Virus record (IMG/VR): IMGVR_UViG_3300012917_000030
Coordinates: 1 to 34,962 of that record
From: a virus
Strand: one strand, 5' to 3'
DNA: 34,962 bases
This document shows positions 3,760 to 27,647 of this stretch, piece by piece. Numbering within the stretch: the first letter of the stretch is position 1; each line of letters starts with the position of its first letter. The notes under the pieces are model-generated. The model was not told the origin of the DNA, searched no databases, and saw only the letters and a list, made by a program, of their open reading frames with translations. Made by a program: the position numbers and the translations under genes.

Positions 3760-6700
3760 CTATTTTCCTTCCCGGCCGGTCTGCCGCGGCACGAACGAGA
3801 AGCCGCTCTTGAACTGAGTTGATGAGGCAGACGGTTCCATGCTCTCCGCAGTCAGCGCGTGATTGCCGCCGAAGGAGAAACCGGACTCAATCGTCGGAGA
3901 CTTTGGTTGCGCCATCGGCTGTTGGCTGTTCCACTGCCACTCCGGCATTGGAGCGATCCCGGCCCCGGGACCGCCGGCAAGGCTAGGGAAGCCCGGTATG
4001 ACGGAGTTAATGGGACCGCCGGCATCGCGGTGCGGGCGACCGACATCATGCACGCCGATGTCCTCCGAAAGTTTCCCAGATTGTCGCTTAATGTGATGTG
4101 ATTCTGGCGTGTAAAAATCCCTACCCGGCGCCCACGGATACATTAACCTGCCGAGCTGACCCATCCGCTGAAGATGCGCCAGCATGTGATCATAGCCACT
4201 CTGGGGTTCGTTGCGACGGTCCTCAACCAAACCCTCTGCTTCCGGCAAGCGCTCGTGAAAATCCTGGCTCAGGCTGTAGGGTGGATTGTCCGCCATCGGC
4301 GTCGGATCTAATAGCGACCCACCATCGGCGCGCCGCTTACGGGTCGCCTCCCAGATATCGCACTTGCCCATCTTGGCGATAAAGCCACCCACCGCGGTAC
4401 AGCCGTGCGGCTTACGGAACATCGAACAGTTCGAGCAGTGCTCAGCCTTGGTACCTCGATCGTGTGCATAGCTATACTTCTTGCGCGTGCTCATGGGCGA
4501 TTTGACAGCACCGCCGGACGCGAACTGAGGTAGGCCTTTGACGAAGGCACTTTCCCGCAGGCGAGGGGTGATGTCGACAGTATGAGCGCGTTCCTTGATG
4601 TCCGGCATATTTTTGGCTGGTTGCGCCAAGTGAACATCGCCTTGACTGACCCTCGCTCCGAACTTTTTGACCAGCTTATTGACCGTTGCCGGCAATATCT
4701 GGTCGTAGAAGCCCTTCATGCCCTCGCCGCCGACTTTGAGATCGAGGCCGGAAAGCATATGAGCGCCCCGAGTACCCTTTTCGGTTGGATTGTTCAGCAG
4801 CTTGTCGGCAGCCTCTTTGCCGATGTAGTCAGGTAATTCTTCCGGCTTGACCCCGTCCTTATCCAGAATTCGATTGCCTTTGTTACTGGCAATCAATGTG
4901 CCTTCTTTTGGGTCGTAAATTATTTGATCGATGTGCTTGCTGAGATCGTATCTTGCCGCCTGCGTTTCTCCTGTTGTCCACGCGACCTTGTCGTAGCCGT
5001 TCTCTGCCGCATAGCGGATCATCCGCTTCATGGCGAGTTCCGGCCATGTGGTCTTGAAGGGGGCGTCAGGAACCTCTCCTTTCGCGTTCTCTATGGCGTT
5101 GTCAATTTCATCAACACGCTCTGCCACCGTTTGACCACTCGGAAGTTTTTCGCCTCTGATACGGTTTTCGAGAGATGCACGCTCCGTTTTTAACGCCTTC
5201 ATCGCGGCATCATCAGTATAGCCACCTTTCTTCCCCTTCTTATGCCAGTCGCTCTGCACTTCCTCGACGAACAGCGTCTTCTTGCCGTCTATGGTTCTAT
5301 CGTTGAAGCGGACGTGGGCGAGGATGTTGGGTTCGTCGAAGTGGGAGGATTTGAAGCTTTGAGGTCCGCGATGGGCAGCGTCCAATTGCTCGTCCAACGC
5401 CGCCATTTGCTGGTTGAATGGGCCGCTCTCGATCCGACCTTCTCTCAGATCGCGTTCTAACGCGCGCTGTTGCTGCTGGATGCCGGAAATGCGGTCAACA
5501 CTTTTGTCCGGCAGCGTCAGCAGCAGCTCGCGGTAGTTCTCGCCGCCGGGGAGCTGGTAGGAGGCGAATTTTGGTTCTCCTAGAATAAAACCACCCTCTA
5601 ATGGTTGGCCTTCTGCCTTGTGAACCTCCCTCACCTCAATCTGATTAGCCCGCACATAATCGGCAAGCTGCTGCTTGGTGACCGGGCCTTTCTGGTCTTT
5701 CAGCCAATCCTCAAGCCCCAGCCATTGCATCTCTTCTCGCCCCACGCCCGGCGCATTTTTGATGGTAGCGAGCCATTGTTGGGGTGGTGCTTTGGTCGTC
5801 TTGGCTGCATTCACGGCTTGCTCGACGCCCGAGTAGAACGTCGGGCCGCGGGAACGCTCAAAGCCGGCCTGAAGGATTTGGTTCTCGGTTCCGGTTGGGA
5901 TAGGCGCAGTCTTAGTCGGTCGACCGGAACGTCCGCGCTCGGTCACATCCCGGGCAAGGGCTTGTCGTTCCAACGCAGAATTATCGATCACCACCACGGC
6001 CGGAAAGCTGGTCTTGCCGATGTGCTGAAGCGCGTCGAAGCGATTGGAGCCCTCCAGGATGTAGGGCCCTTTCTCATCGACGGCGACAATTAGTGGGTTA
6101 ATCTCGCCGCTATTCTTGATGGCATCGCCTAGTGCCGTTGTTCGCGGCGTCGGCTTGGCCAGCCCCGTAAACATCGAGAACGGCACCTCGCGAATGCCCG
6201 GCAACTCTTGATAGTTGCCCTCATTTCCTAGTTCCGCGCCGATCGAGGCGGTGTTCGGGACATCCTTGCGGACCTTGAGCCCATCCACGGTGTCGCTAGC
6301 GCGCGGGTAGGAAGTATCGGCGTCGACCCTCTCGCCTGATTGAGTTGGAAGACGAAGTCCCGGCTCCTGCTTCACTTCTTCTTCGGCGGAAGGTTTGGCG
6401 GCTTCAGACGCTTCCAGTTTTGGTCCAGCGGTTTCTGAAACCTCTCCTCGGCCGGATAATTCTGCAGCTTGACGGGCGGCTTGCCCGGCCCTGACTGTGT
6501 CATCGTGTGCCCTTAGTTCTGCAACAGATTTTTCCCAGATGCTGGGCTCTTTGGTGATATCGCCACTGGTGATATAGCGCACCGCGGTACGGTAGGCCTT
6601 TTCGATCGGACTACCCGGTTTGGCGTTCTTGGCCTGCTCATAGAGATAGTTGAGCGCCTGGGTTTTGTCTTCCCCGAAAGAGTAAATTGCCTGTCGGGCG

Positions 6701-9048
6701 AGCGCGCGCGGCGCCGCGGCGTCAACGAGGCGCTCACCCATCCCCGTTTGCTTCAGGGCTGACGTGATCACCTCCGGCCTTGCCGCGGCGATCCCGGTGG
6801 CAGCGATCCCCTTTAGGAAGTCACGCCGCTTCATGTCACCGAACGACATCGCCTGACGCTCGGGAGGAGGCCGCTCACCCGGTGCTGGGCCTTCCTCAAC
6901 CTTGCGCGCCCCGCGCTCCAGGATTTCATTCTCAGTCCCGATCGGCAGCGGCGTACGCTTGATGGGCCGTCCGGAACGGCCGCGCTCGAGAACCTGCGGG
7001 ACCAGCGGCTGGCGCCCGACAGGCCCGGCGAGGCCTCCTGGACCCTCTTCGGCGCGCCGCGTGAGTTCGCGCATGATAGCGTCGCGCTCGGGCCCTACCG
7101 TCGAATAGATGCGCCCAGCCTCCTCGGCGATGCGTTGAGATCGCCTCGCGGCCCCCGCGTCCATGCGGTTGCCAACATACTCAAGGCCCTTCTTTGCTAA
7201 CGAACCGACACGCAACGTAGCAACATCTGCCACCGTGCCAGCGACCTTCGCCGCCTTCTCAAGCGGGCCGGTTTCCGGCGGCGCCCAAAACGCCTTGTAG
7301 CTCTCCCGCGGCGCGGTCTCCGAGTTTCCAATAATCCTTGGAATCGCCTGCCTCATGCGTTTTTCTTGTTCGAACGACTGGAACAATTGCTCTGCCCCGT
7401 CGTCACCAAGCATGGCGCGAATTTTGAGCTGATTGTCGGGGGAGTTGATGACGCTCTCGACATTCGCCATACGGCGTCCCGGCGTGCCTTTCTTGCCCAT
7501 CTGGCGGTCCAGCATGTCACGCAGGCCGATGCGAACACCCTCTCTGTTGGAGGGGGACATCTCTCCCCACAGGGCCTCGAACTCCTCCGGATTAACAGCG
7601 TCAGTCAGAACCTTGCGGCCGAAATCCTTGGCCTTGAGAACGCCTGTCGGTCCAGCCCACACATCGCGCGCAGACTTCCAGACGCCGGCCACCTGCGGGT
7701 CGGAGTGATTGTCGATCGCATTGACAAGGTCGTTCTTCAACTCCACGAGACGCCGCCGGGCGCCGGCCTTCTTGGAGCCGGAGATATCATCGTCGAGCGC
7801 CTCCTTGGCATATTGAAACGCCTCGGCAGTCGGGATGCGCTCCTGTTCCGTTGGAGTGCGCATGCTGTTACCGCCACCAGTCTCCTCAGTCAGCTCCGGG
7901 AACCCGCGCGTCGCCGGCTTTCCCTCCATCGCCAGGAACCGGTTCGCCTCGGTCAGCGCGCCAGCTGCCCGCAATCGCGGGATGATGGCCTCGATCTCTG
8001 GGGTGGGGGTGATCCTGGTGCTCTCAAACTTCTCCCACAGCGGATCGGCGGCTGCCTTGCGCCGCCGCTTGATATCCGCTTCCCACTCTCGAACGTTGGT
8101 GCTGTCGCCAAAAGCGTCATTGATGTAGCCGGTCGCACGCTCTGGGTATCTGGCATCGCGATCACGCAATGTATTAGCGATTTCCGTTCGCTGTTGCCCC
8201 ACCGATGATTGTAGGCCCCCCATATGTCCCCGGAGGTCTTCGTTCGCTTCACCGAAGGTCTCCTCAGGGTGAAGCCCTTCGATGACATCCTCGATGGAGT
8301 GGCGGGTATAGCCGGAAGGCTCGAAGGACCGCTGCACCATCTCCTGGGCTTCGGGAGAGGCGGCTTCAAGCGCGTTGGTGCCGCCGGCGGCGCCGACTGA
8401 GCGCTGACCCGCCGGGCGCGGCGAAGGTGCGGGCTGTGGCGGTTCCGGTCCAGTCGCTGGTGGGAATGTCGGAGCGGCAGGCGGCCCCTCGGTCAGAACG
8501 CCCCCAGGTGTCTCGCCAGAAGCCTCCTGAGCGATCTTTTGCAGGACCCTGGCCGTCTCCCTGGGCGCGGCGGAAGGTGCATGGGCGGCAATAGCACCTT
8601 GGCCGCGGCCACCGCCAACGCCCTCGCTCTCCATCACGCCGGCCGCCGTGCGGCCAAGCTCCTTCATGGGGCGCAGGCCGGCCTTGGCGAGTAGCGGGTC
8701 AACCTTCGGTCCAAGCGACTCCGCGCCGGCAGCCACTCCAGCCTGGACCGATTCAAATGGCCGACTAATGGCCGCTTCAGCTCCGCCCTTTAGAAGATCA
8801 ACCGGGATATTACCGGTCTTTTCTACCTCGGAAGGCTGGAAAAAGCGCGATGCGGCTGCCTTAGCTGCACGCACACCGGCAACAATGGCATCGCTCATGC
8901 CTTCCGATTCGACGCCACCGCCCTTAGGAAGACCAGCGAAAGTTTTCTCCGGAGCGGCGGCAAAAGGATCGTGCTCTACAGGCGAGAAGCTTGGTCCCGC
9001 GCTGCCTTCAAACGGATCATGATCGACAGGAACCAATTCAGGCATCAT
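3760..9048 (-). CDS. Giant polyvalent internal virion protein (1762 residues)
   Basis: The gene starts in an ATGA overlap with the upstream lysozyme-protein gene. Residues 1-90 carry two VDHDPF/VEHDPF repeats and a GGG motif. About 230-680 is a long charged helical region. Residues 688-713 hold the linker ERGRSGRP...GTENEIL, repeated at 1037-1062. At 739 an internal Tat-like sequence (MKRRDFLKGIAATGIAAA) occurs. Residues about 950-1025 resemble a ParB/sulfiredoxin-like nuclease domain (REVPFSMF, INPLIVAV, YILEGSNRFDAL). About 1160-1475 is a domain seen in large polyvalent proteins (NYRELLLTLP, SSHFDEPNILAHVRFNDR, FVEEVQSDWHKKG, TTWPELAMKRMIRYAAENGYD, WTTGETQAARYDL). A four-Cys motif lies at 1538-1563. 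The C-terminus is disordered. With neighbours encoding a virion lysozyme and a pyrophosphatase domain, the best reading is a multidomain protein ejected with the DNA to act early in the host. The exact activities are inferred. Confidence 0.75.
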   Translation of the reverse strand: MMPELVPVDHDPFEGSAGPSFSPVEHDPFAAAPEKTFAGLPKGGGVESEGMSDAIVAGVRAAKAAASRFFQPSEVEKTGNIPVDLLKGGAEAAISRPFESVQAGVAAGAESLGPKVDPLLAKAGLRPMKELGRTAAGVMESEGVGGGRGQGAIAAHAPSAAPRETARVLQKIAQEASGETPGGVLTEGPPAAPTFPPATGPEPPQPAPSPRPAGQRSVGAAGGTNALEAASPEAQEMVQRSFEPSGYTRHSIEDVIEGLHPEETFGEANEDLRGHMGGLQSSVGQQRTEIANTLRDRDARYPERATGYINDAFGDSTNVREWEADIKRRRKAAADPLWEKFESTRITPTPEIEAIIPRLRAAGALTEANRFLAMEGKPATRGFPELTEETGGGNSMRTPTEQERIPTAEAFQYAKEALDDDISGSKKAGARRRLVELKNDLVNAIDNHSDPQVAGVWKSARDVWAGPTGVLKAKDFGRKVLTDAVNPEEFEALWGEMSPSNREGVRIGLRDMLDRQMGKKGTPGRRMANVESVINSPDNQLKIRAMLGDDGAEQLFQSFEQEKRMRQAIPRIIGNSETAPRESYKAFWAPPETGPLEKAAKVAGTVADVATLRVGSLAKKGLEYVGNRMDAGAARRSQRIAEEAGRIYSTVGPERDAIMRELTRRAEEGPGGLAGPVGRQPLVPQVLERGRSGRPIKRTPLPIGTENEILERGARKVEEGPAPGERPPPERQAMSFGDMKRRDFLKGIAATGIAAARPEVITSALKQTGMGERLVDAAAPRALARQAIYSFGEDKTQALNYLYEQAKNAKPGSPIEKAYRTAVRYITSGDITKEPSIWEKSVAELRAHDDTVRAGQAARQAAELSGRGEVSETAGPKLEASEAAKPSAEEEVKQEPGLRLPTQSGERVDADTSYPRASDTVDGLKVRKDVPNTASIGAELGNEGNYQELPGIREVPFSMFTGLAKPTPRTTALGDAIKNSGEINPLIVAVDEKGPYILEGSNRFDALQHIGKTSFPAVVVIDNSALERQALARDVTERGRSGRPTKTAPIPTGTENQILQAGFERSRGPTFYSGVEQAVNAAKTTKAPPQQWLATIKNAPGVGREEMQWLGLEDWLKDQKGPVTKQQLADYVRANQIEVREVHKAEGQPLEGGFILGEPKFASYQLPGGENYRELLLTLPDKSVDRISGIQQQQRALERDLREGRIESGPFNQQMAALDEQLDAAHRGPQSFKSSHFDEPNILAHVRFNDRTIDGKKTLFVEEVQSDWHKKGKKGGYTDDAAMKALKTERASLENRIRGEKLPSGQTVAERVDEIDNAIENAKGEVPDAPFKTTWPELAMKRMIRYAAENGYDKVAWTTGETQAARYDLSKHIDQIIYDPKEGTLIASNKGNRILDKDGVKPEELPDYIGKEAADKLLNNPTEKGTRGAHMLSGLDLKVGGEGMKGFYDQILPATVNKLVKKFGARVSQGDVHLAQPAKNMPDIKERAHTVDITPRLRESAFVKGLPQFASGGAVKSPMSTRKKYSYAHDRGTKAEHCSNCSMFRKPHGCTAVGGFIAKMGKCDIWEATRKRRADGGSLLDPTPMADNPPYSLSQDFHERLPEAEGLVEDRRNEPQSGYDHMLAHLQRMGQLGRLMYPWAPGRDFYTPESHHIKRQSGKLSEDIGVHDVGRPHRDAGGPINSVIPGFPSLAGGPGAGIAPMPEWQWNSQQPMAQPKSPTIESGFSFGGNHALTAESMEPSASSTQFKSGFSFVPRQTGREGK

Positions 9049-12000
9049 TGCACCTGGAGATATTTACCGGGTCGTTCTGGGTCAGAGACGTACCATTTCC
9101 CGTCCGGCGCTTTCCTGGCGTTGGCTACCGGAGGCGTTTCCGTTCCTGCTCCACCACCACCGCCTCCGCCACCAGCGCCACCACCCAACGGAACAGGCTC
9201 AAGCGATGCCTCGCCATGGTTCTTGCGGTAGAACTCGCGCATCTTCTCCGGCGAATTGATCGCCATGTCGATTTCGCTATTCATAGTCTCGATCACCCGA
9301 CGCATGACGTTCGGGCTAGTCGCCGAGTTGAGCAATTCGTGCGCACGATTACGTGCCGAATCGGTCACCACATTGGAACCGCGCGACATCACCGCCGCAT
9401 AGGTATTCTCGATACCCTGGAGGCGCGTCATCAGCTCGTACTGATCTTCCGACTGGGTGCCCTTCTGGTAGAGTTCGATCAGCTTGTTGAGCGGCAGGAT
9501 GTTGGTTCGCGTGGACTCCATCTTCTTGATGATCGGCTCAGCGAGCGCGATCGCGCCCTTCGCCTCGAAGCCGGCCATGCCCATCTTGGACTCGGAGGTC
9601 GATAGCGTGCGCTGTGCCGCGGCGTCACCCTTGAAGCGGTTCCAGGCATCGGCTTGCTGCTGCGGGGTGACGCCGTTCTCAACGCGCTGACGCGCCGCTG
9701 CCTTGTGAATTGCCATAAGGGCGGCGCTGCCTTGCGTACCACGACCGACATTGGTCAAAGCCTGAGGACCAACGATATTGTACATCGCCGCCATCTGCTC
9801 GACTTGGTTGTCATCCAAGCCGGTCTGCGAGCGCGTCGCTTCAGATTTTGCCTGCGCTATTGCGGCTGCCTTGTTGCCAGCTTGCTCGGCCGACTCTTTG
9901 CCGCCGGGGATAGCCTCCTGCCCTCGCGAAGGGTCGGGAACGCCAGTGTCGGGATTGATTTTCCACCTGAAACCAGGAGAGAGGACGCCGAATTTCTCGT
10001 CTTTCTGACGTTTTTCCTCGAGGTCGGAAGCTCGCTTCTGTTCCCTGTCGGACTTCTCCCGCGCCAGCCTTTCCCGCTCCTGTTGATACTCGCGCTGATC
10101 CTGGAAATGGGCGGCGCGCTCGGCTGCCTGAGAATTTGCCAAGTCTAGCCTCTGACCCTGAAGCTCGAACCCCTTGTCGATCTTGTCGATCTGCGCCTGC
10201 TTGAAACGGGCATCGAGCTTGAACTTGCGATCCTCCTGGAGCTGCTTGGCGCCATAGCGCTCCTGCTCGGCGCTGGCCCCCAGTGTGGCAAGCCCGGCCT
10301 GACCAATCGCGTTGCCGATGTAGGGCGTCGGATTGGCCAGCATAGCCAGCCCGAACCGCAGGGCATTGTCCGCCGTGAATAGACGCCCTATCCCACCAGA
10401 CCCCGGCGTCGTGCGAGTCTCACCATTTCCTTCGCCATCTGAAGTTGACCGCAGCGTGACCCCGCCACTGGTCGGAGTAGCTCTGGCGGGCAGCCGGTCA
10501 TCTCCAGCAGAACCTGCCGTGCTCGCTCCAGTGTATCCGTGAAGAGGGTCAGAGGACCGGTCGATATTGGCTTCGCGCTGATCGAGATATTCCTTCTTAG
10601 GGGCGAGCCATCGAGCATAGACCTTAGCCGCTTCCTGCCATGTCGGTGCTTCATTCATTCTCCTCCAGACATCGGGGTTGGTGCGTCGAAGGTTCTCGAT
10701 CTCATACGCCGTCTGGGTCTTCGGGTCTCTCCAGTCTAAACCATTCTGCTGGGCATAGCGATCGAGACCGGTCCATTGATTACCGCCATGCTGGTACATG
10801 CCGTGCGCGTAGTGCGCCTCGCCGGTAAACCGCGGCTGATCTGGATGGCGCAGTTCAGACCTAAACTCGCTCTCGGCATTGACGTTATAGAGTACACCCT
10901 TGACGGCGTTCTCTTTGGCGCCGGCCTCGCGCCACTGATCCGCCACCTGACCGGCCATGCCGGGATAGGTTGGCGTCCGCGATGAGGCTGCGTTTGGCGT
11001 CCAATCTCCAGCAATGCCGCCAGGGGCACCGCTCGCGGTTTCTTCCCAGTTGCGCACCGGCCGGTTCGGGCCCGCCTGTGGAACAGCCTCAGGAGCCCCT
11101 ACGGCGCCCGCCCAGGAGGGTCTTGCGAGACCGGTGGGGCTTGATAGGGGGGCGGCCGCCATGGGCGCAAGGCCAGCCCCCGTAGGAGCGTCTGGAGGGG
11201 GTGTGGATGATGTGGGGATATCATCGGGGAAATCCGAGTAATCTTGGGGGTCGTCCCGGCTTGGAATAAAATCCCCGCCGCCCCCAGCCCTATGTAGACG
11301 ATGCAAGCCGTGGATACCTCCACCTCGCCTCATGCCAGGGGGAACATTGATGCCACCGCCATCTTTGAGGGCAAATAGGGCAAATAGGGCACTAAGGTCC
11401 ATGCCCCCCATCGCCGCCCCGGCACCAGCTGCAGCCTCGCCCCCACCGGCGACCGCCGCGTCGCCCGCCCCGGACGCCAGAAGGTCGGTCCCGCCGGCAG
11501 TGAAACCAAGTTCCCCGGCCGACATTCCACTCTCGGCGCCAGCTTGGGTAACTTCGTCAAGTCCGGGCTCGCCGGTCCCCATCAAATCTGGGATGCCGCC
11601 CTGCGTCGAGGGATTGAACATCTTCCCCAGGCCCTTGCCCATCGGGCTCTGGCCCATCTTCATGATGTCGCCGAAGGGGTCCTGTCCCTTTTGCTGGTGC
11701 CCTGCTGCCGGTTTCGGTGGACCCGAACCGTGGGTGATGCTGATGCCGGGGATGTACGACGACGCTCCAGCGTAAGGATATCCCCCGAGGCCACCGCCTT
11801 CATCGTAGCCCGGCCGCTTGATGCCACCACCGCGGTTCCAGAACTGATACCAAGGCTTCGGCGGGGTCGTGGTCGACGTGGACTGCCCGCCCATATTCGA
11901 CCCGACGCCGGTGCCGATCCCGGCCAGCCAGGACAGCTGCTGATAGGGGTAGGCCTGCTGTTGCTGGAACTGCTGGTAGGGAACGTTCAGATATTGCTGG

Positions 12001-12641
12001 GCAAGCTGCTGCTCAGCTGTACCGGCACCGTACTGCGCCTGGAAGCCCTGGAGGATGTCCGCAAGGTTCGCGGTGCCGAGCCCGGCCTCCGAGCTGGCAG
12101 CTCCCAGTTGACGGTTCTTCTCTGCCTGGGCGGCGGTAAGCGCCTGGGAATAGCCGGACGCGTTGAGCCCGGCGATCGTCGGTGCTTCCGCCGTAGCCTG
12201 CTGCTTGGCAAGCTGCGCCTGAGCCACCCCGAGACGGTCGTTGAATAGACCGCCCTGGCCCATGAGGTTGCCCTCGAGGCCGGTCTGCTGTTCCTGATTG
12301 AGCTGACCGAGATTGGCCAGCGTCGCCTGGACGACCTGCTGCTGGTAGGGGTTCTGGAACCGATTGATGTCGTACGCACTGGTCGGCGCTGCGCCGAGCG
12401 ACAGATAATCCTGAGCCTGATTGAAATAGGGCTGCGCGATGCCTTGCGCGTTGTTGATGCCGGCGATGCCGCTGAGCTGCTCCTGCGACATCGGGGCGAC
12501 CATCTGGCCGCCATATTGCTGGTAGGGCTGCGAGCCAACGACGTTGGCCCGATTGATGATGTTTTCGTACTCCTGCATCACCTCCGGCGGAGGCGAATTA
12601 TTGGAGACGTTAGTAGTTGCGCCTTTGGAACTGGAGCCCAT
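9045..12641 (-). CDS. Large internal/ejection protein with tail-lysozyme domain
   Basis: About 1198 residues from the ATG at 12641; an in-frame GTG at 12656 would add five, and neither has a clear ribosome-binding site. Residues about 1-265 are Gln/Tyr/Ala-rich (QQYGGQMVAPMSQEQ, NPYQQQVVQATLANL, QGGLFNDRLGVAQAQLAKQ), a pattern I associate with phage virion proteins. A Gly-rich stretch with RGGGIHGLHRLHRAGGG follows. Residues about 555-700 resemble the phage tail lysozyme fold (NAVKGVLYNVNAESEF, AHYAHGMYQHGGNQWTGLD, YEIENLRRTN, TWQEAAKVYARWL), with a Glu in NAESEF as a candidate catalytic residue. About 788-880 is a highly charged coiled coil, then a helical domain. The chain ends in an eight-plus Gly run and a KAPDGKWYVSDP motif. 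This combines functions that T7 divides among gp14-gp16: wall digestion plus forming a DNA conduit. That role is inferred. Confidence 0.75.
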   Translation of the reverse strand: MGSSSKGATTNVSNNSPPPEVMQEYENIINRANVVGSQPYQQYGGQMVAPMSQEQLSGIAGINNAQGIAQPYFNQAQDYLSLGAAPTSAYDINRFQNPYQQQVVQATLANLGQLNQEQQTGLEGNLMGQGGLFNDRLGVAQAQLAKQQATAEAPTIAGLNASGYSQALTAAQAEKNRQLGAASSEAGLGTANLADILQGFQAQYGAGTAEQQLAQQYLNVPYQQFQQQQAYPYQQLSWLAGIGTGVGSNMGGQSTSTTTPPKPWYQFWNRGGGIKRPGYDEGGGLGGYPYAGASSYIPGISITHGSGPPKPAAGHQQKGQDPFGDIMKMGQSPMGKGLGKMFNPSTQGGIPDLMGTGEPGLDEVTQAGAESGMSAGELGFTAGGTDLLASGAGDAAVAGGGEAAAGAGAAMGGMDLSALFALFALKDGGGINVPPGMRRGGGIHGLHRLHRAGGGGDFIPSRDDPQDYSDFPDDIPTSSTPPPDAPTGAGLAPMAAAPLSSPTGLARPSWAGAVGAPEAVPQAGPNRPVRNWEETASGAPGGIAGDWTPNAASSRTPTYPGMAGQVADQWREAGAKENAVKGVLYNVNAESEFRSELRHPDQPRFTGEAHYAHGMYQHGGNQWTGLDRYAQQNGLDWRDPKTQTAYEIENLRRTNPDVWRRMNEAPTWQEAAKVYARWLAPKKEYLDQREANIDRSSDPLHGYTGASTAGSAGDDRLPARATPTSGGVTLRSTSDGEGNGETRTTPGSGGIGRLFTADNALRFGLAMLANPTPYIGNAIGQAGLATLGASAEQERYGAKQLQEDRKFKLDARFKQAQIDKIDKGFELQGQRLDLANSQAAERAAHFQDQREYQQERERLAREKSDREQKRASDLEEKRQKDEKFGVLSPGFRWKINPDTGVPDPSRGQEAIPGGKESAEQAGNKAAAIAQAKSEATRSQTGLDDNQVEQMAAMYNIVGPQALTNVGRGTQGSAALMAIHKAAARQRVENGVTPQQQADAWNRFKGDAAAQRTLSTSESKMGMAGFEAKGAIALAEPIIKKMESTRTNILPLNKLIELYQKGTQSEDQYELMTRLQGIENTYAAVMSRGSNVVTDSARNRAHELLNSATSPNVMRRVIETMNSEIDMAINSPEKMREFYRKNHGEASLEPVPLGGGAGGGGGGGGAGTETPPVANARKAPDGKWYVSDPERPGKYLQVQ

Positions 12642-12700
12642 GGACCGCGCCGCCACACAGAGTTAATGCGGCGAAGCGCTCGTCGCAGGATAGCGCCAGA

Positions 12701-13183
12701 TTATACGACCCTACTGAAATCGCCAAATAGCTCTGCCGCCTTCGCGGCATAGGCTGCGTGAGCCGCTTCTGCGGTGGCAAAGGAACCAAGACCATGCAAT
12801 TTTCCATTGACCCGAATATGAGAAGTCCATCCCGCCGTCGGATGACGATAGGCCCCCTTCAGTCCAGAAAAGTTGTTGCGCCGAACACGTTGATTGCCGC
12901 AATTCTGAGAGCGCGTCGCCGCGCGTAAGTTCGACCAGCGATTGTCGTTCTTGATAAGATTGATGTGGTCAACATCGTGTTCTGGCCATTCTCCGGTCAT
13001 GTAAAGCCATGCCAAACGATGCGCAAAATAAGCACGTTGATTGATTTTTATAACCAGACGGCCATAATTGAGGTAGCCGGCAATGCTGCCATTTCGGCGA
13101 AATGTTCCGGATAAGGGATCGTAATTGAGGATTGCCCTTAATTTTTCAGCAGACAGTCCTGTCAATTTATCAGTGTGCTGCAT
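12701..13183 (-). CDS. HNH homing-type endonuclease with AP2 DNA-binding domain
   Basis: In this 160-residue protein, residues 51-90 form an HNH motif: FAHRLAWLYMTGEWP, then VDHINLIKNDNRWSNLR, with Asp72-His73, Asn81 and Asn85 at the expected spacing. Residues about 103-157 are an AP2-like DNA-binding domain (NNFSGLKGAYRHPTAGWTSHIRVNGK...GSFATAEAAHAAY). This HNH-AP2 arrangement is typical of free-standing homing endonucleases that spread between phage genomes by cutting alleles that lack them. The ORF is full length with both domains intact, and overlaps the end of the GNAT-like gene by 14 bases. Base composition looks somewhat more AT-rich than the flanking structural genes, consistent with acquisition. 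Confidence 0.9.
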   Translation of the reverse strand: MQHTDKLTGLSAEKLRAILNYDPLSGTFRRNGSIAGYLNYGRLVIKINQRAYFAHRLAWLYMTGEWPEHDVDHINLIKNDNRWSNLRAATRSQNCGNQRVRRNNFSGLKGAYRHPTAGWTSHIRVNGKLHGLGSFATAEAAHAAYAAKAAELFGDFSRVV

Positions 13184-15008: not shown

Positions 15009-15161
15009 TCAGGGAAGCCGTGGAGGCCACGAAGGTGTAGCATTTGTCACGACCTGGGTCAGCCCATTGATCGCCGTCACGACATTCTGCATGGCCGTGA
15101 TCAGAGCCGAATTGGCCTGCTCATCGGTCGCGCTGCTACTCGGTACGGAATTGTCAGCCAT
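15009..15161 (-). CDS. 50-residue tailspike-associated small protein
   Basis: The start at 15161 overlaps the stop codon of the upstream tailspike gene (TGATG), so the two are probably co-translated; a longer frame to 15203 would run back into that gene. The sequence contains ALITAMQNVVTAINGLTQVV, which resembles the tailspike's own N-terminus (LLTIVQNAVLAINGLAQQF). The shared amphipathic helix suggests a common virion-attachment or oligomerisation element. The last residues are Pro/Arg-rich. It may be a cap or connector peptide, or the remnant of a duplicated spike. No family is recognised. Confidence 0.6.
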   Translation of the reverse strand: MADNSVPSSSATDEQANSALITAMQNVVTAINGLTQVVTNATPSWPPRLP

Positions 15162-16615
15162 CAATGAACGCTCCTCACGTAAGTCGGCGCGGTAGTGGCC
15201 CACGTCGTGATGTAGCTTTCATTTGGACCAAGCTGGATCGTGATCGGGTCGTTGGCAAGCGCCGCCGTCGCTATGGTCTGACCGCCAATCGTGATCGAAC
15301 TGATGGTTCCGGCACTTCTGACATAGTGTGTCTCAGGAGACGAGCCTGCCGCATAAGTAAACGGAGATGTGCCCATCGTGTTGGTCGTCACACCGACCGG
15401 GTTGTAGCCTGGATTATTGGCGATGTAATTGCTTACCGCGTTGGACGAATTTAACAGCGCCGTCGTGTTACCTGCAAGCAGATTCCCCGTGACTGATACG
15501 TTGGGAGCATTCGCTTGTAGCCATATTCCTGTGTTGAAGGCATCGACAAGGTTGTCGCTGATCGTCCCTATTCCGCCGGTCCCGCCAATCACAATCCCAT
15601 TCGTGGTAGTCGGGTCGGATGACTGGATGACGTTCCCCGTTATCGTAAAAAAAGTAACTGGCCCGAGATTGAAAGCATTGCTGTTGGCTCGCGATATGAC
15701 GAGATTATTTGCGATTAAGACGTCACCGACGACCGTGCCCAAAACGATGGCATTCGTCGGAACATTAAATTGACAATTGGTGACGTTGAGTTGCAGCAGC
15801 TGTCCTGTTTGCCCTCCAGGACCGAAAATTCCGTTACAGGTTCCATTGTTGGACGTGAAGTTGCATTGATCGACCGTGACCCCTTGAATGTACGACCCGT
15901 ACTGAATCCCGGTGAGATTGTTGAAAGTCGATTTGGCAATATTGTAGACAACCCCATAAGTGGCTCCGCCCGGATTGCCGATAAGAGTGATGCCGGTACC
16001 GTTTGGGGTCGCCGGACCTAAGGCGGTCAAATTCTCAATCTGGATATTCGAGACGTTAGTGACGTTGACGCCGATCGTCCAATAATTCGCAAAGACGGCA
16101 TATGCATCACTGCCGCGGATCGTGACACGATAGATATCGCTGATTGCAGTGAGGGCCGGATTGGCGTCAGCGAAACTGCTTTGGATCAGAAGCGCATTGC
16201 CACCGTTCGTGGCCCCAGTCGTTAGGGTGAGGTCGCGAACGTGGATAGACGAGCCGATGCCGGAAAGAGTGAAGGTCAGGCCGCCTGAAGCGTTCGGCCA
16301 GAATAGAACCGTGCTGTCGGCGCCACTCCCGACGATGCTGACGGAAAACGTGCCGGTCGGATAATTGAACGGGGCATTGGCGCTGAACAGATACGTTCCC
16401 GGTGGGAAAAAGATCGACCCACCCGTCCCGGAAAGAAAGGCGACCGCCCTGAGATAGGCCGCAAGATTGTCTGTCTTGCCATCTCCGACACCGCCGAAAT
16501 CGGTAATCGAGATGATAATTTTAGTCTTGAAAAACTTCTGGAATTGCTGGGCAAGTCCATTGATGGCCAGTACGGCATTTTGGACTATCGTCAGCAACGA
16601 TGGCGACGACATCAT
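15161..16615 (-). CDS. Tailspike, pectate-lyase-like right-handed beta-helix protein
   Basis: This is a 484-residue protein. Residues 1-30 form a short helical attachment segment (LLTIVQNAVLAINGLAQQF). Residues 34-77 have the classic pectate_lyase_3 entry: ITDFGGVGDGKTDNLAAYLRAV...GTGGSIFFPPGTYLFS. Many short beta-helix coils follow (NIQIENLTAL, VTVDQCNF, LLQLNVTNCQFN, VLIANNLVISR, FFTITGNVI, VSVTGNLLAG). The last 70 residues form a separate C-terminal domain. Phage spikes of this fold bind and often cleave capsule, O-antigen or exopolysaccharide; catalytic residues cannot be assigned by eye. It starts in an ATGA overlap with the tail nozzle gene, which fits mounting on the tail. Confidence 0.82.
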   Translation of the reverse strand: MMSSPSLLTIVQNAVLAINGLAQQFQKFFKTKIIISITDFGGVGDGKTDNLAAYLRAVAFLSGTGGSIFFPPGTYLFSANAPFNYPTGTFSVSIVGSGADSTVLFWPNASGGLTFTLSGIGSSIHVRDLTLTTGATNGGNALLIQSSFADANPALTAISDIYRVTIRGSDAYAVFANYWTIGVNVTNVSNIQIENLTALGPATPNGTGITLIGNPGGATYGVVYNIAKSTFNNLTGIQYGSYIQGVTVDQCNFTSNNGTCNGIFGPGGQTGQLLQLNVTNCQFNVPTNAIVLGTVVGDVLIANNLVISRANSNAFNLGPVTFFTITGNVIQSSDPTTTNGIVIGGTGGIGTISDNLVDAFNTGIWLQANAPNVSVTGNLLAGNTTALLNSSNAVSNYIANNPGYNPVGVTTNTMGTSPFTYAAGSSPETHYVRSAGTISSITIGGQTIATAALANDPITIQLGPNESYITTWATTAPTYVRSVH

Positions 16616-20426: not shown

Positions 20427-20638
20427 GGACCGATATTACAGCCTTTGCCCTCCATTCGGAAATCCTCAATGGCCGAGGTGTCGAAGGACGGGGCGGGCGT
20501 TGGGTCATTGATAGTTATGATCTCGGCCGAACGTAGAAGCCCATCGCGATGGCGCCGCAATAGTGCGCCAACAAGCATCCCTAGATCAACAGGACCATCC
20601 TTCGTGTCCATCATGTTGGGTCGCGGATGTGCGCTCAT
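20423..20638 (-). CDS. 71-residue hypothetical protein in the adaptor block
   Basis: The start at 20638 is chosen because its ATG forms an ATGA overlap with the end of the first adaptor gene; its stop overlaps the start of the zinc-ribbon gene in the same way. The protein begins MSAHPRPNMMDTKDGPVDLG, continues with a helix containing MLVGALLRRHRDGLL and an acidic, Pro-containing C-terminus. No known family is recognised. The conserved-looking double overlap and clean frame argue that it is real. Confidence 0.65.
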   Translation of the reverse strand: MSAHPRPNMMDTKDGPVDLGMLVGALLRRHRDGLLRSAEIITINDPTPAPSFDTSAIEDFRMEGKGCNIGP

Positions 20639-21387
20639 AATCGGTAGTACCCCGTGAAATCTGGCGTCAGATTGAGCGGCCGCTGGTTGGTGTCGGCCTT
20701 GGTCGCAGCGTACCAAGCCAGCTCAGCCTCGCCGGCGAGCCCCTGACCGGGTATCCCCGCCCACGGATTACCGGGCGTCCCCACCCGTTCCGGCGCGTAA
20801 TGAATGGCCACCCGCTTGGCAAGACCCGCCACGAAGGCGTCAAGAAACCGATACGGGGAATCAATCGTGACGCCGCCAGGGCCAACCACATCCTGAATTT
20901 GAGTAAAGGCGAAGCAGAACGCCGTATAGGGCCCGCCATTGTCAGGAACGGGCCACAGGTTCATCACCGGACTGATCTGACGATCGTACCACCAACTGGT
21001 CGGCGGCCCCTGCTGAAGCTTGTTGGAAATCGACTTGTACTCGGTCGCCGAGAGCGGCCCCATCACGATGTCAGTCTGCCCGGTAACCCCGGGTTGGGTC
21101 TCGCGCCACGCCATCGACACCATCAGCGTCGTCGCTGGCAACGCATATTGAAAAATGCCTTGGGTCAATGTGGTCGAGGCCGGGAACTGGATGGTCTCCT
21201 GCTTCCACAAGTTGTAGCCACGGTTGGCCCATTCGACGTTGAGCAGGTTCGCCTCGCGTGCCGCCGTATTGAGGTGCTCGACGGTAAGCACGTTGCCCCG
21301 CAACTCGGGACGCGCGCACCGGCTGAATGCTGTGCGTATCAGGTCCGCGGCGGATGGATTGAAGACCGTGGTTCCGCTCGATGTCAT
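20635..21387 (-). CDS. Neck/adaptor protein (tail tubular gp11 / P22 gp4-like)
   Basis: This is a 250-residue protein. The start at 21387 is preferred because a GGGAGAG site lies about eight bases upstream and the frame then begins just after the repeat-protein gene; the longer frame overlaps that gene. The N-terminus reads SAADLIRTAFSRCA, then EHLNTAAREANLLNVEWANRGYNLWKQE, the typical adaptor pattern of a helix that ends with 'W-x-N-x-G-x-NLW'. A beta-rich middle follows (IFQYALPATTLMVSMAW), then SPYRFLDAFVAGLAKRVAIHYAPER, a long C-terminal helix. Such proteins bind below the portal to connect head and tail. The later nozzle gene supports the reading. Confidence 0.72.
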   Translation of the reverse strand: MTSSGTTVFNPSAADLIRTAFSRCARPELRGNVLTVEHLNTAAREANLLNVEWANRGYNLWKQETIQFPASTTLTQGIFQYALPATTLMVSMAWRETQPGVTGQTDIVMGPLSATEYKSISNKLQQGPPTSWWYDRQISPVMNLWPVPDNGGPYTAFCFAFTQIQDVVGPGGVTIDSPYRFLDAFVAGLAKRVAIHYAPERVGTPGNPWAGIPGQGLAGEAELAWYAATKADTNQRPLNLTPDFTGYYRL

Positions 21388-21403: not shown

Positions 21404-22411
21404 TCAGGTGTAAATATACACGCGCGGCCGGCTGGTGACCACGGGAGCAACAGAGCTGAAATCCTGCGCCGTTCCGCGCGTTAGGGATACCTGGAGGTCC
21501 CAACGTGACGGCCAGACACGCGGGATGAAGTGGACATTCGTCTCAACAGCCGACGAGCTGAAATCAGCCGCAATATTCCGGCCGAGAGCCCGGTTCAGAT
21601 CCCACCGCAATGGCAGCTGCTTCGATATAAAATAGGATAGCGTATCGACAACTGCCGGAACGTCCGTAGCAGGATTTTGCCGCAACGACAGTTGTGAGTA
21701 CCACTGTGAGGCCCATACCCCCAGCTGCCATGACGTAGGGGTGTCAGAAGTTACAACAACCGCAGGAACATCGGCCGCCGCGTTTTGCCGCAAGGGTTGC
21801 TGAGGTTGCCATTGCCCCGGATAGGTTCGACCTGTCCATTGCGGATTGGTCTCGATTGCAGGTGAGGTGAGGTCGTTCGCCGTCCCACCCACAAGGGAAA
21901 GATTGAGGACCCATTGCCAGGGAAGCTGGCCTGGGACGAAATAAGTCGGCGTATCCGGCTGAGCCGCGACAGCTGGGGCGTCCGTCGCCGGGTTCTGCCA
22001 CAGCGCTTTATATGCCAGCCATTGCAGGGGCCACGCATGCGGGATGAAGTAGACATTCGTCTCGACGGCGGAAGAGCTGAAATCGTTGGCCGTAGTCTGG
22101 TCTAGCAGCGGATTGGTGATCCACTGAACGGACCACGTCTTACCTCGCCAGTGAGGATTCGTCTCAACCGCCGAGGCACTGAAATCCTGAGCAGTATTTT
22201 GTTTGAGCCGAAGATCGACACTCCATTGAACAGGCCATACCTTACCCGCCCAATGGGGGTTGGTCTCGACCGCCGACGAGCTAAAGTCCTGCGCTATGTT
22301 CTGCCGCAAGGCTCCGGCCGGTACCCATTGCGTAGACCAAGTATGCGGGATGAAATGAGTGTTCGTCTCAAAAGAGCTTAAATCGACGGCTGTCGCATTA
22401 TTGTTGAACCG
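21404..22411 (-). repeat. Array of about ten in-frame repeats of 99-108 bases
   Basis: The repeats in the 401-residue gene have unit lengths of 34, 34, 34, 34, 36, 34, 36, 33 and 34 residues from residue 67 on. At DNA level copies are divergent but recurrent words are visible, for example the segment encoding SSAVETN (around 21550, 22065, 22165 and 22275) and that encoding FIP. The two subtypes are interspersed rather than clustered, which argues for old duplications followed by divergence or gene conversion. Confidence 0.85.
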
Positions 22412-22609
22412 GGAGAACTGCGGCTGAGTAAATCGGCCTATGAAATTCTGACTCGGTACGACCGCAGGATTGGAAGTGTCTGGAACAAGGGAATTGTAAT
22501 TTGTTCGAGTGAATACTGACGGCGTGAAGGATCGGCAAACGAAATGCGGATTGGCCTCGACGACCGCGCCGGTCGTTTCCCACAGCGATCGTGAATTGAG
22601 AAGCGCCAC
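21404..22609 (-). CDS. Tandem-repeat virion protein built of 33-36-residue W-x-x-QW repeats
   Basis: This is a 401-residue protein of unrecognised family, made almost entirely of repeats. Clear units begin at residues 67, 101, 135, 169, 203, 239, 273, 309 and 342, with a partial unit at 376. More divergent copies occupy residues 1-66. The common unit is L-x-QN-x-A-x-DFSSSAVETN, then P-H-W or HFIP, then a W-P-x-QW element. A second subtype has D-x-PAV and DTPTYFVPGQLPWQW in the same positions. There is no signal peptide or membrane span. Regular aromatic-rich repeats suggest a closed propeller or elongated solenoid. The gene lies between structural genes and the neck adaptor, so a fibre or whisker-like virion role is plausible but inferred. 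A host-surface or carbohydrate-binding role is an alternative. Confidence 0.75.
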   Translation of the reverse strand: MALLNSRSLWETTGAVVEANPHFVCRSFTPSVFTRTNYNSLVPDTSNPAVVPSQNFIGRFTQPQFSRFNNNATAVDLSSFETNTHFIPHTWSTQWVPAGALRQNIAQDFSSSAVETNPHWAGKVWPVQWSVDLRLKQNTAQDFSASAVETNPHWRGKTWSVQWITNPLLDQTTANDFSSSAVETNVYFIPHAWPLQWLAYKALWQNPATDAPAVAAQPDTPTYFVPGQLPWQWVLNLSLVGGTANDLTSPAIETNPQWTGRTYPGQWQPQQPLRQNAAADVPAVVVTSDTPTSWQLGVWASQWYSQLSLRQNPATDVPAVVDTLSYFISKQLPLRWDLNRALGRNIAADFSSSAVETNVHFIPRVWPSRWDLQVSLTRGTAQDFSSVAPVVTSRPRVYIYT

Positions 22610-22632: not shown

Positions 22633-23019
22633 TTAGGCATTCGCGAGCATGTTCCATGCGTTGGCCACAGCGTTATTAATATCGGTATCCGTGGCCCCAG
22701 TAATCGTTGGCGTCGCCGTCGTCACCGCCGCGGCAACCACGGCGGCCGTCGTCGCGGGCGTAAAATTGGTCACGTTGGCCGTTACCACATCGTTCGCCAA
22801 GGTCTGATTTGACGCAGCCGCCCAAACAAAGTCAGGTATAGAAGCGTTCGGATCGTTGAGCACCTGATTGGCGTAGTTCTTTCTTCGATCATGATTTACG
22901 ACGCCGGTCTCAGCGTTGATCGTTTGAATGGCGTACTGATAGACCGCGGCCTGGACACGACCTTTAAAGGTCACGTCGGCCGCGATCAGCGCCATGTCAA
23001 GAAGAGTTGCAGTAGCCAC
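22633..23019 (-). CDS. Small structural-type protein, 128 residues
   Basis: The protein begins MATATLLDMALIAADVTFKG with helices rich in Ala and Asn (RVQAAVYQYAIQTINAE, HDRRKNYANQVLNDP). It continues with SIPDFVWAAASNQTLANDV and ends in an Ala/Thr-rich low-complexity stretch with ITGATDTDINNAVANAWNML. No catalytic or membrane feature is seen. Helical N-terminus, disordered linker and terminal helix could suit a head-tail or decoration protein. It lies between the repeat protein and a beta-rich structural protein. No family is recognised. Confidence 0.6.
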   Translation of the reverse strand: MATATLLDMALIAADVTFKGRVQAAVYQYAIQTINAETGVVNHDRRKNYANQVLNDPNASIPDFVWAAASNQTLANDVVTANVTNFTPATTAAVVAAAVTTATPTITGATDTDINNAVANAWNMLANA

Positions 23020-24650: not shown

Positions 24651-25424
24651 TTAAGCAGCCCTACGGCCCGGAACGATGAGCTTATTCCGAATCTGAACCA
24701 AACGCTTCCTCGGCGATATCAGGCATTGATGCGGCATTGCAAAAATTCTCTTGTGATGCCCGACACCCATCATAGGCAAATTTCCACCTGACGTCGCTGC
24801 CGCGGCAGCGACCTTGAACGAACCGGCGGCAATAGACCACGGGGCGGCACCGCCACCCTGCGTCCATGACATTGTCGTGCCACTGGCGCCAGATGGTTGT
24901 GAAGAACTCGCGGCCTCGTTATTCGGCGCCGTGAGCGGCCCCCAACGCAAGGTCTGAGAACCACCCTGCGTCTCGCTGTCATTCTGATCGTTGCCAACGA
25001 CATCGATAACCAATTCAGTGGTAACGGTAGTCGCGACCGATATGCTTGGCGTAGTGCTGCTTCCGCCTCCAGCATTTGTGTTACTGAAAACAGTCGTTGT
25101 ATCTGAGCCGGTAACCGTGATGGAGCCGCCTATAAAAAACGCACCCGTATTAGCGAATGTGACTGTGACCGTTTGCGCCCCTGCCGGCGGATTAGCTAAC
25201 CCCCATAATTGCGCAGTGCTGCCATTCGCTACAGTCGTGCCGGTTGCAAATAATGTTAAAGAGACGCCCCCATACGTGATGCCATTGATCGCCGCACCAG
25301 GGTAATTGAATAGCGTAACGCCTACTGCTGTAGGTGTTTCCACAGGCGTGTGCATCCACGATAGCGTCGTGGCACCATTGTTTGTTACGCTAGAACTGGC
25401 AACTGCATCGAAGGTGACAGACAC
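24651..25424 (-). CDS. Ig-like beta-sandwich surface protein
   Basis: In this 257-residue protein, residues 1-190 consist of short Thr/Val/Gly-rich strands: GVTLFNYPGAAINGITYGG, LWGLANPPAGAQTVTVTFAN and FIGGSITVTGSDTTT, followed by SIAAGSFKV. This is typical of Ig-like or carbohydrate-binding-like beta sandwiches seen on phage virions and in host extracellular proteins. The last ~45 residues are unexpectedly basic and hydrophobic (RIFAMPHQCLISPRKRLVQI), which may anchor the protein. The start abuts the end of the 740-residue spike gene with no spacer, suggesting the two are made and perhaps assembled together. Confidence 0.6.
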   Translation of the reverse strand: MSVTFDAVASSSVTNNGATTLSWMHTPVETPTAVGVTLFNYPGAAINGITYGGVSLTLFATGTTVANGSTAQLWGLANPPAGAQTVTVTFANTGAFFIGGSITVTGSDTTTVFSNTNAGGGSSTTPSISVATTVTTELVIDVVGNDQNDSETQGGSQTLRWGPLTAPNNEAASSSQPSGASGTTMSWTQGGGAAPWSIAAGSFKVAAAAATSGGNLPMMGVGHHKRIFAMPHQCLISPRKRLVQIRNKLIVPGRRAA

Positions 25425-27647
25425 TTAATTGCCCACGTTGTTACCGGGAGGGATTGGCCCTGATATCGGATTTGTTGGCGTTGCAGCCAAAAGAGCCGCT
25501 AGCCTTGCCTTTGCAAGAAGCGTGTGAACAGTTCCGGTAGATGGATCGAGCCAAGGCCATGGATTAGCGCCCCAAAACGCAGGAGGATTCCCCCCCGGAA
25601 GATATAAGGAATTTGGAAGCGCTAACGGAGGCCCCGTACTGGTCGTTCCAGTGTCGCCGATATTAGCGTAGAAGATTTGGCTTCCCGTGAACCAATCCCA
25701 ATTTCCCTGACGCAATAAAGTCAGATAAGTATTCGTATGCTGGATGTTTACGCCGCCCTGCTGATTATTACCGCCCCTCCACATGACCGTATCGCTGCCA
25801 CCGGAAGCGCCCGTCCAATCTTCATAATGAAATGGACCGCCCGTCCATGTTCCACCCGCATCGTGCCATGAGATAGGAACCTGCCCTGAATACCCCAGCA
25901 CATTGCCAACAAAACTATGTGTTAACAGATATGCCTGTAAGTCAACAGCAGAGCGCCCGCTATAATCAAGATCGCGATAAGGCTGCGCATTCAACGGTCC
26001 AATGCCAGGAGTGGCGGTAAGAGTCTTCAGAGGTCCACCAGCAGCACGCAAACCGGATAACCAATTTCTGAGCAATACGATTTTGAACGAGTTCCCCCAG
26101 AATGTATCCCCTTTATACATAAAACAGTAATTACCTTCAAACAGCGCAAAATGCGAACCCACGTAATGAGCAGCATTAAGTCCGGCCTCTGGCCCAGAGG
26201 GATATTGGGTGCCAAAGGCATCATCCATGCAATTATAGGCAATGACGTTGCCAGGACCCGCCCCCTGCATAACCATGACTTTGTTGCCAAACCACACCAC
26301 ATTATTTTCAATAAGGCAATCTGTGGCCCCGGCCGCAAATCCAGTTTTATAACCACCACCTCCAGGGTTTACATCTGGGGATTCATGCAGAACCGAATCT
26401 CTTATTTCGCAGCGATAACAGGTCGTAATTCCATCGGCCCCCCTGCCCCAACCAGAATCAACGTTCTTTATCCAACTGTAAGCGCAGCCGCCAAAGTTGA
26501 TGTTGCCGTGCTCACCATCAAATAACATCATGTCTTCGATGCCGACACCGTAGACAAATGGTGTACTAGCCGATACCCGAGAAATCTTCGCACTGAGCGC
26601 CACCCTGTAATCGCCCCGTATGGGCATCACAGACGTTATGATTTTGTTCACGGCATCGATCGCGGCGACCTCGATCAATGCCACTCTTGCACAGTATGGA
26701 TTACAAACAAACCAACCCCATTCCGGATTACTCGGAAATGGGCCGGGCACAAAGTTCAGACCCCAAACTGCTTCAGGATCGGTGTCGAACCAAGCATACG
26801 ATCCGATCGGCATGTCTCGTATGGTGGGCTTGCTCAGCGTGACCGTTGTCCCCGTAAATGAATTGACGACGGTGCCTTCGGGAAAGATGTAGTTCGTGCC
26901 GTCGTTGCTATAGGCATTCAACCCAACTGTAACTCCCGCCGGTACCGAAGGCAGAGTTATAGTGCTGCTCCCATTTGGATTGTCTACAGTGGTGGTCGCC
27001 GAGAAAGCGAGCGTCGTATGATCGAGAATGACGATGTCGCCAACGGCGAGGCCGGACGGAATGCTGGCGAGATGAATCTGGTTCGACCCGTGCGTCGCAT
27101 CAGCAACTAATAAAGTTTGATCTAAAATAGTAGCGGGAAGAGTTTGATTTCCTGCTGAAATTATATTTGTTCCACTCCCTGCGGTCCCTATTATCTGAGT
27201 AGCCGTCGCATCAACAGTGAAAGCGCCGTGCGATGGTCCAGGAACTCCGTTGATGCCAAAACTGAGATTCGCACCAGAGCCGGAGCCACGAAGGGTAATG
27301 TCCTTGTTGATCGTCAAGCCCTGGGTATGAAAAACTCCAAGGCTAAGCTTTACAAATTGACCTGACGGGCAAGCATTTATTGCATTCTGAATATTAGTAA
27401 AATCAGTTGCGCCCGTAAGATCACCGGATGGTGTGATCGTAGAACCAGATTGTGTGTTTCTTACAGGGATTCCAGACGATCCGTGGCCAGCCAATGATGT
27501 TAGCCCAGCATATGTGTTGTAAGTGACACCAGGCTGCCACGTCGTTGAGCGATCGGCAGGAAGCTGGAATAACGGCAGTCCACTAACTGGAGCCGAGCCA
27601 CCGGACCTCTGATAGCCAAAAGACCACGGTTGCCCAAACTGTCGCAT
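25425..27647 (-). CDS. Large beta-helix tailspike/depolymerase candidate, 740 residues
   Basis: After an N-terminal region (1-75) the protein shows a pectin-lyase-type entry (ATDFTNIQNAINACPSGQFVKLSLGVF, then LTINKDITLRGSGSG). A long parallel beta-helix follows, with coils such as GVGIEDMMLFDGEHGNINFGG, CEIRDSVLHE, DCLIENNVVWFGN and NVIAYNCMDDAF. A Trp/Gly-rich C-terminal part (WFTGSQIFYANIG, NPPAFWGANPWPWLDPSTG) probably trimerises or binds sugar. This architecture fits polysaccharide-degrading spikes; active-site residues cannot be assigned. Parts of the gene (for example 26,101-26,160 and 27,121-27,180) have only about 37% GC, well below the neighbouring genes, which suggests recent acquisition. 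It is unrelated at sequence level to the 484-residue spike. Confidence 0.72.
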   Translation of the reverse strand: MRQFGQPWSFGYQRSGGSAPVSGLPLFQLPADRSTTWQPGVTYNTYAGLTSLAGHGSSGIPVRNTQSGSTITPSGDLTGATDFTNIQNAINACPSGQFVKLSLGVFHTQGLTINKDITLRGSGSGANLSFGINGVPGPSHGAFTVDATATQIIGTAGSGTNIISAGNQTLPATILDQTLLVADATHGSNQIHLASIPSGLAVGDIVILDHTTLAFSATTTVDNPNGSSTITLPSVPAGVTVGLNAYSNDGTNYIFPEGTVVNSFTGTTVTLSKPTIRDMPIGSYAWFDTDPEAVWGLNFVPGPFPSNPEWGWFVCNPYCARVALIEVAAIDAVNKIITSVMPIRGDYRVALSAKISRVSASTPFVYGVGIEDMMLFDGEHGNINFGGCAYSWIKNVDSGWGRGADGITTCYRCEIRDSVLHESPDVNPGGGGYKTGFAAGATDCLIENNVVWFGNKVMVMQGAGPGNVIAYNCMDDAFGTQYPSGPEAGLNAAHYVGSHFALFEGNYCFMYKGDTFWGNSFKIVLLRNWLSGLRAAGGPLKTLTATPGIGPLNAQPYRDLDYSGRSAVDLQAYLLTHSFVGNVLGYSGQVPISWHDAGGTWTGGPFHYEDWTGASGGSDTVMWRGGNNQQGGVNIQHTNTYLTLLRQGNWDWFTGSQIFYANIGDTGTTSTGPPLALPNSLYLPGGNPPAFWGANPWPWLDPSTGTVHTLLAKARLAALLAATPTNPISGPIPPGNNVGN

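Follow-up and report, generated by a model that had tools for sequence, protein, structure and literature searches.

A new family of 34-residue repeats as a candidate variable-length appendage module of an uncultured short-tailed phage

HTVC023P-type pelagiphages carry curli modules (PMC9599517). In mycobacteriophage Douge, Ig-like domains of the capsid and tail bind host surface glycans (PMC13033339), which illustrates a general principle and not the repeat array described here; the literature on tandem-repeat fibres offered nothing on point. The phage analysed here (IMG/VR record IMGVR_UViG_3300012917_000030, whose 34,962 nucleotides are hereafter called the window) is related to HTVC023P, DSL-LC04 and MW202675 through its major capsid and stabilization proteins. 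On its minus strand, a gene with a GTG start at position 22609 and a stop at 21404 encodes a 401-residue protein of tandem 34-residue repeats. This repeat is a new family, found within an already known kind of gene cassette.

Under BLOSUM scoring, the autocorrelation of the protein is strongest at an offset of 34 residues (z = 14 relative to shuffles). A unit profile trained solely on the units of other phages (contigs L002, L003 and L004, see below) was then run on the window protein, which reached 417 bits in total. Nine units were recovered between residues 73 and 375 at 29-64 bits each, followed by the start of a cap at residues 376-388 (13.6 bits), while the top single-unit score among 500 shuffles of the same composition was 6.6 bits. 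An earlier note, made from the sequence alone, had described the protein as consisting almost wholly of 33-36-residue repeats in two interspersed subtypes. The tandem units, their length of 33-36 residues and both subtypes were confirmed by these analyses, but clear repeat covers about 84% of the chain only, residues 1-65 being degenerate and matching the unit profile once, weakly, over residues 15-29 (10.6 bits). The layout is that of a degenerate N-terminal stretch, nine recognizable units and a C-terminal cap.

Subtype A follows the pattern D-F-S-S-S-A-V-E-T-N-x-H-F/W and subtype B the pattern D-A/V-P-x-V-x(n)-D-x-P-x-Y/S-F/W, in the order AAAABABBA in the window. Both share a core which, over 37 units from four phages, comprises one invariant tryptophan (37/37), an aspartate (36/37), an alanine (35/37), an acidic position occupied by D or E (37/37) and an aromatic position (36/37). 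A rule that two B units are never adjacent was not significant (P = 0.18), and the absence of B from both array ends is a weak signal (P = 0.04). At the DNA level, Tandem Repeats Finder detected no array at 21404-22609, the units having diverged, which indicates that the duplications are old.

Read from the N-terminus, with all features on the minus strand, the degenerate repeat-like stretch (22415-22609) is followed by four type A units: unit 1, partly degenerate (22310-22414), unit 2 (22208-22309, 64 bits), unit 3 (22106-22207, 63 bits) and unit 4 (22004-22105, 54 bits). Unit 5 (21896-22003, 49 bits) is of type B and carries DTPTYFVPGQLPWQW, unit 6 (21794-21895, 47 bits) is of type A, and unit 7 (21686-21793) is an extra type B unit absent from this place in L002 and L003. 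A further type B unit, unit 8 (21587-21685, 42 bits), and a last type A unit, unit 9 (21485-21586, 61 bits), lead to a C-terminal half-unit and cap (21404-21484), where all four phages share the motif SRPRVYIY unchanged.

The earlier note had recognised no family for these repeats, and the searches agree with it. No credible match was obtained among Pfam, PHROGs or NCBIfam profiles at E values up to 10, the best PDB match (E 0.43, to antibody chains) is a chance one, and no relative of the repeats was found in INPHARED phages, in PLSDB or in GTDB sampled at one genome per species. Scans of IMG/VR with different conserved stretches returned the array in no contigs beyond L002, L003 and L004, and the family is a small one of four examples in all, the window included. 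The array is missing from MW202675 and from those more distant relatives in IMG/VR that were searched. Curli-like amyloid repeats, as in the distantly related HTVC023P-type pelagiphages, would fit the QNxA motif of the units and the presence of curli modules in relatives of this phage group (PMC9599517), but the conserved tryptophans and the 34-residue period make this reading extremely improbable. It was rejected: the window gave no Curlin_rpt match, nor did the four members in a Pfam scan at E up to 10, and control genomes did give matches with the curlin profile.

The arrays vary in length as well as in sequence. By the same segmentation, full units number 9 in the window, 10 in L002, 11 in L003 and 7 in L004, in line with the earlier suggestion that copy number could vary between related phages. 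Compared with the L003/L005 contig, identity is 97% for the adaptor and 86% for the gene upstream, and falls to 51% for the repeat protein, whose final 60 residues are nevertheless 92% identical. Nucleotide identity of the array to L003/L005 amounts to 84% along its last 293 bases and to about 70% beyond, and this drop coincides with the extra type B unit of the window. A passive structural part with no host-binding role of its own (a neck whisker, a head fibre or a shaft spacer, for example) would account for the position of the array between head-protein and adaptor genes, for its long regular repeats, suited to a spacer, and for the fact that conservation is highest at the C-terminal end, where an attachment site would be expected to show it; we nonetheless consider it unlikely, since a divergence exceeding that of the neighbouring genes, together with changing cassette content, is more typical of parts in contact with the host. 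That the number of units and the neighbouring genes both vary between phages is what would be expected of a host-touching part.

The relatives differ from the window in how the array is attached. In L003 (680 amino acids) and L004 (509 amino acids), the array forms the C-terminal part of a protein that begins with a domain of about 210 amino acids. The N-terminal domain of L004 matches the 'minor tail protein' families phrog_553 (1.7e-8) and phrog_9784 (1.3e-6), and that of L003 is related to a domain which the window encodes separately, in a gene of its own at 24651-25424 on the minus strand that also has minor-tail-protein PHROG matches. The L002 array is probably fused to an N-terminal domain as well, because its frame, cut off upstream, stays open up to the contig edge and its linker is the same as in L003. 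A minor-tail-protein domain on the same polypeptide as the repeats is thus found in L004 and not in the 401-residue protein of the window taken alone. In the more distant L024, the domain lies at the same locus upstream of an adaptor homologue, with a short tail and no repeats. Given fusion in L003 and L004, a separate gene in the window and the repeat-free L024, the array behaves as a detachable C-terminal module. Judging from its sequence and from the annotation of its matches, the N-terminal domain may adopt a beta-sandwich fold of the Ig-like or lectin-like kind.

The unfused array and degenerate N-terminus of the window protein count against a role in an appendage, as they could reflect a different mode of action or decay. 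The window gene would then be the remnant of a fused adhesion gene, deprived of its N-terminal domain and with its first units decaying, as the fusions in L003 and L004 and a GTG start lying within the degenerate stretch and preceded, three codons before it, by an in-frame stop would suggest. Such a remnant seems quite improbable to us, for 336 residues are still open and well conserved, the cap is intact and the N-terminal domain persists as a complete gene.

Genes around the array point to a virion setting. Directly downstream lies a gene of the SU10-adaptor type (20635-21387, minus strand, a borderline Pfam match) and directly upstream a small gene (22633-23019, minus strand), while a spike-like gene, pectin-lyase-like by eye and without a profile match, occupies 25425-27647 on the minus strand. 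In each of the four phages an SU10-type adaptor gene lies downstream of the array; the downstream adaptor-type proteins match SU10_adaptor, one of them just at the cut-off. The order in the window is spike, lone domain, repeats and adaptor, and that in L003 is domain fused to repeats, spike and adaptor, the L003 homologue of the spike-like gene being flanked by the repeat gene and the adaptor. This variable cassette, bounded by small head-region genes on one side and by the adaptor on the other, is reshuffled while its flanking genes are up to 97% identical. The virion-gene setting proposed in the earlier note is therefore upheld by the fused minor-tail domain of the relatives and by the adjoining neck genes of SU10-adaptor type and spike-like genes.

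Several other features of these genomes were noted. A transposase-like ORF (IS1-like by eye) at 9477-10397 of L003, on the minus strand, breaks up the stretch from the adaptor to the next structural gene. Related HNH-type endonuclease genes occur in the window (12701-13183), in L004 (3853-4356) and in L013 (near 4296-4685); their different placement beside adaptor and spike genes across phages indicates that they are mobile around the appendage cassette. The pectate-lyase-like gene at 15161-16615 of the window starts with LLTIVQNAVLAINGL, which in L002 (3361-6084) lies inside a fused C-terminal extension of the stabilization protein; these positions suggest that a shared linker has been a site of gene fusion and fission. 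The genes at 25425-27647 of the window and at 833-2305 and 5304-7970 of L003 resemble one another in an N-terminal stretch (W...RSGGS), which may represent a virion-attachment motif common to cassette appendage genes. Elsewhere in the window, the 1762-aa protein encoded at 3760-9048 weakly resembles ParB-N over residues 973-1031 (E 0.006, short of the cut-off) and also matches phrog_5880 and an endolysin PHROG, and the 1203-aa protein encoded at 9045-12656 combines an N-terminal DNA-ejection-protein match with a mid-chain phage tail lysozyme domain.

Structure prediction with AlphaFold2 gave models of unusably low confidence, with a pLDDT of 26 for the whole chain (4 alignment rows) and of 41 for three units in phase (10 alignment rows); the scarcity of homologous chains, of which there are four, is the most likely cause. 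The propeller or solenoid fold suggested in the earlier note finds no support in these models, and the usual propeller blade is longer than 34 residues. Models of such low confidence do not predict an irregular architecture either, and with no match to a known family, neither of the outcomes that the note had named as refuting was obtained. Tentatively, and with somewhat more doubt than confidence, the 34-residue unit could be an unseen repeat fold, forming an adhesion rod of adjustable length that phages would extend, shorten or re-tip by recombining A and B units behind an invariant cap.

From the fused domain, the genes that share the cassette and the pattern of variability, we infer that the array is probably a C-terminal module of variable length that serves a virion appendage of a short-tailed phage in adhesion or as a shaft. 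It would constitute the C-terminal, probably distal, module of an appendage protein, in which the 34-residue units would stack on one another into an elongated rod, longer or shorter according to copy number. Each unit would contribute two tryptophan or aromatic positions together with conserved acidic and polar residues, and the capped end and the side faces would contact the cell envelope. Recombination would gain, lose and swap units, changing length and surface while the C-terminal cap stays constant; in the window, the array is a polypeptide of its own, unlike the fused arrays of the relatives. Its use as a tunable ligand, as the earlier note suggested, is plausible. The four natural arrays, with 7 to 11 full units, provide material for asking whether repeat number is a means by which phages adjust their contact with the host, and they enlarge the appendage repertoire of an uncultured short-tailed phage group by a repeat family that has no known relatives. 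Should the fold prove new, it would be a compact repeat in which the caps and the limits of each unit are clear.

Among known systems, curlin repeats (PF07012), of about 22 residues, are likewise arranged in tandem with a QNxA-like motif, but the 34-residue units are tryptophan-rich, have a different period and do not match the curlin profile. The pectin-lyase-like tailspikes of the same genome (e.g., 15161-16615) are likewise appendage-type genes near the same adaptor genes; they match the pectate-lyase-like profile PF12708, whereas the 34-residue unit matches no such profile. Minor tail proteins of L-cluster mycobacteriophages, such as Nicholasp3 gp24, share homology with L004 in their N-terminal domain (34% identity, E 1e-4) and have a long C-terminal region with a periodicity of its own, at lags of 20, 80 and 100 residues; those repeats are unrelated to the 34-residue unit in sequence and length, and the virion type differs. 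The podovirus group defined by SU10-adaptor and stabilization proteins (HTVC023P, DSL-LC04, MW202675) has major capsid, adaptor and stabilization proteins homologous to those of the window.
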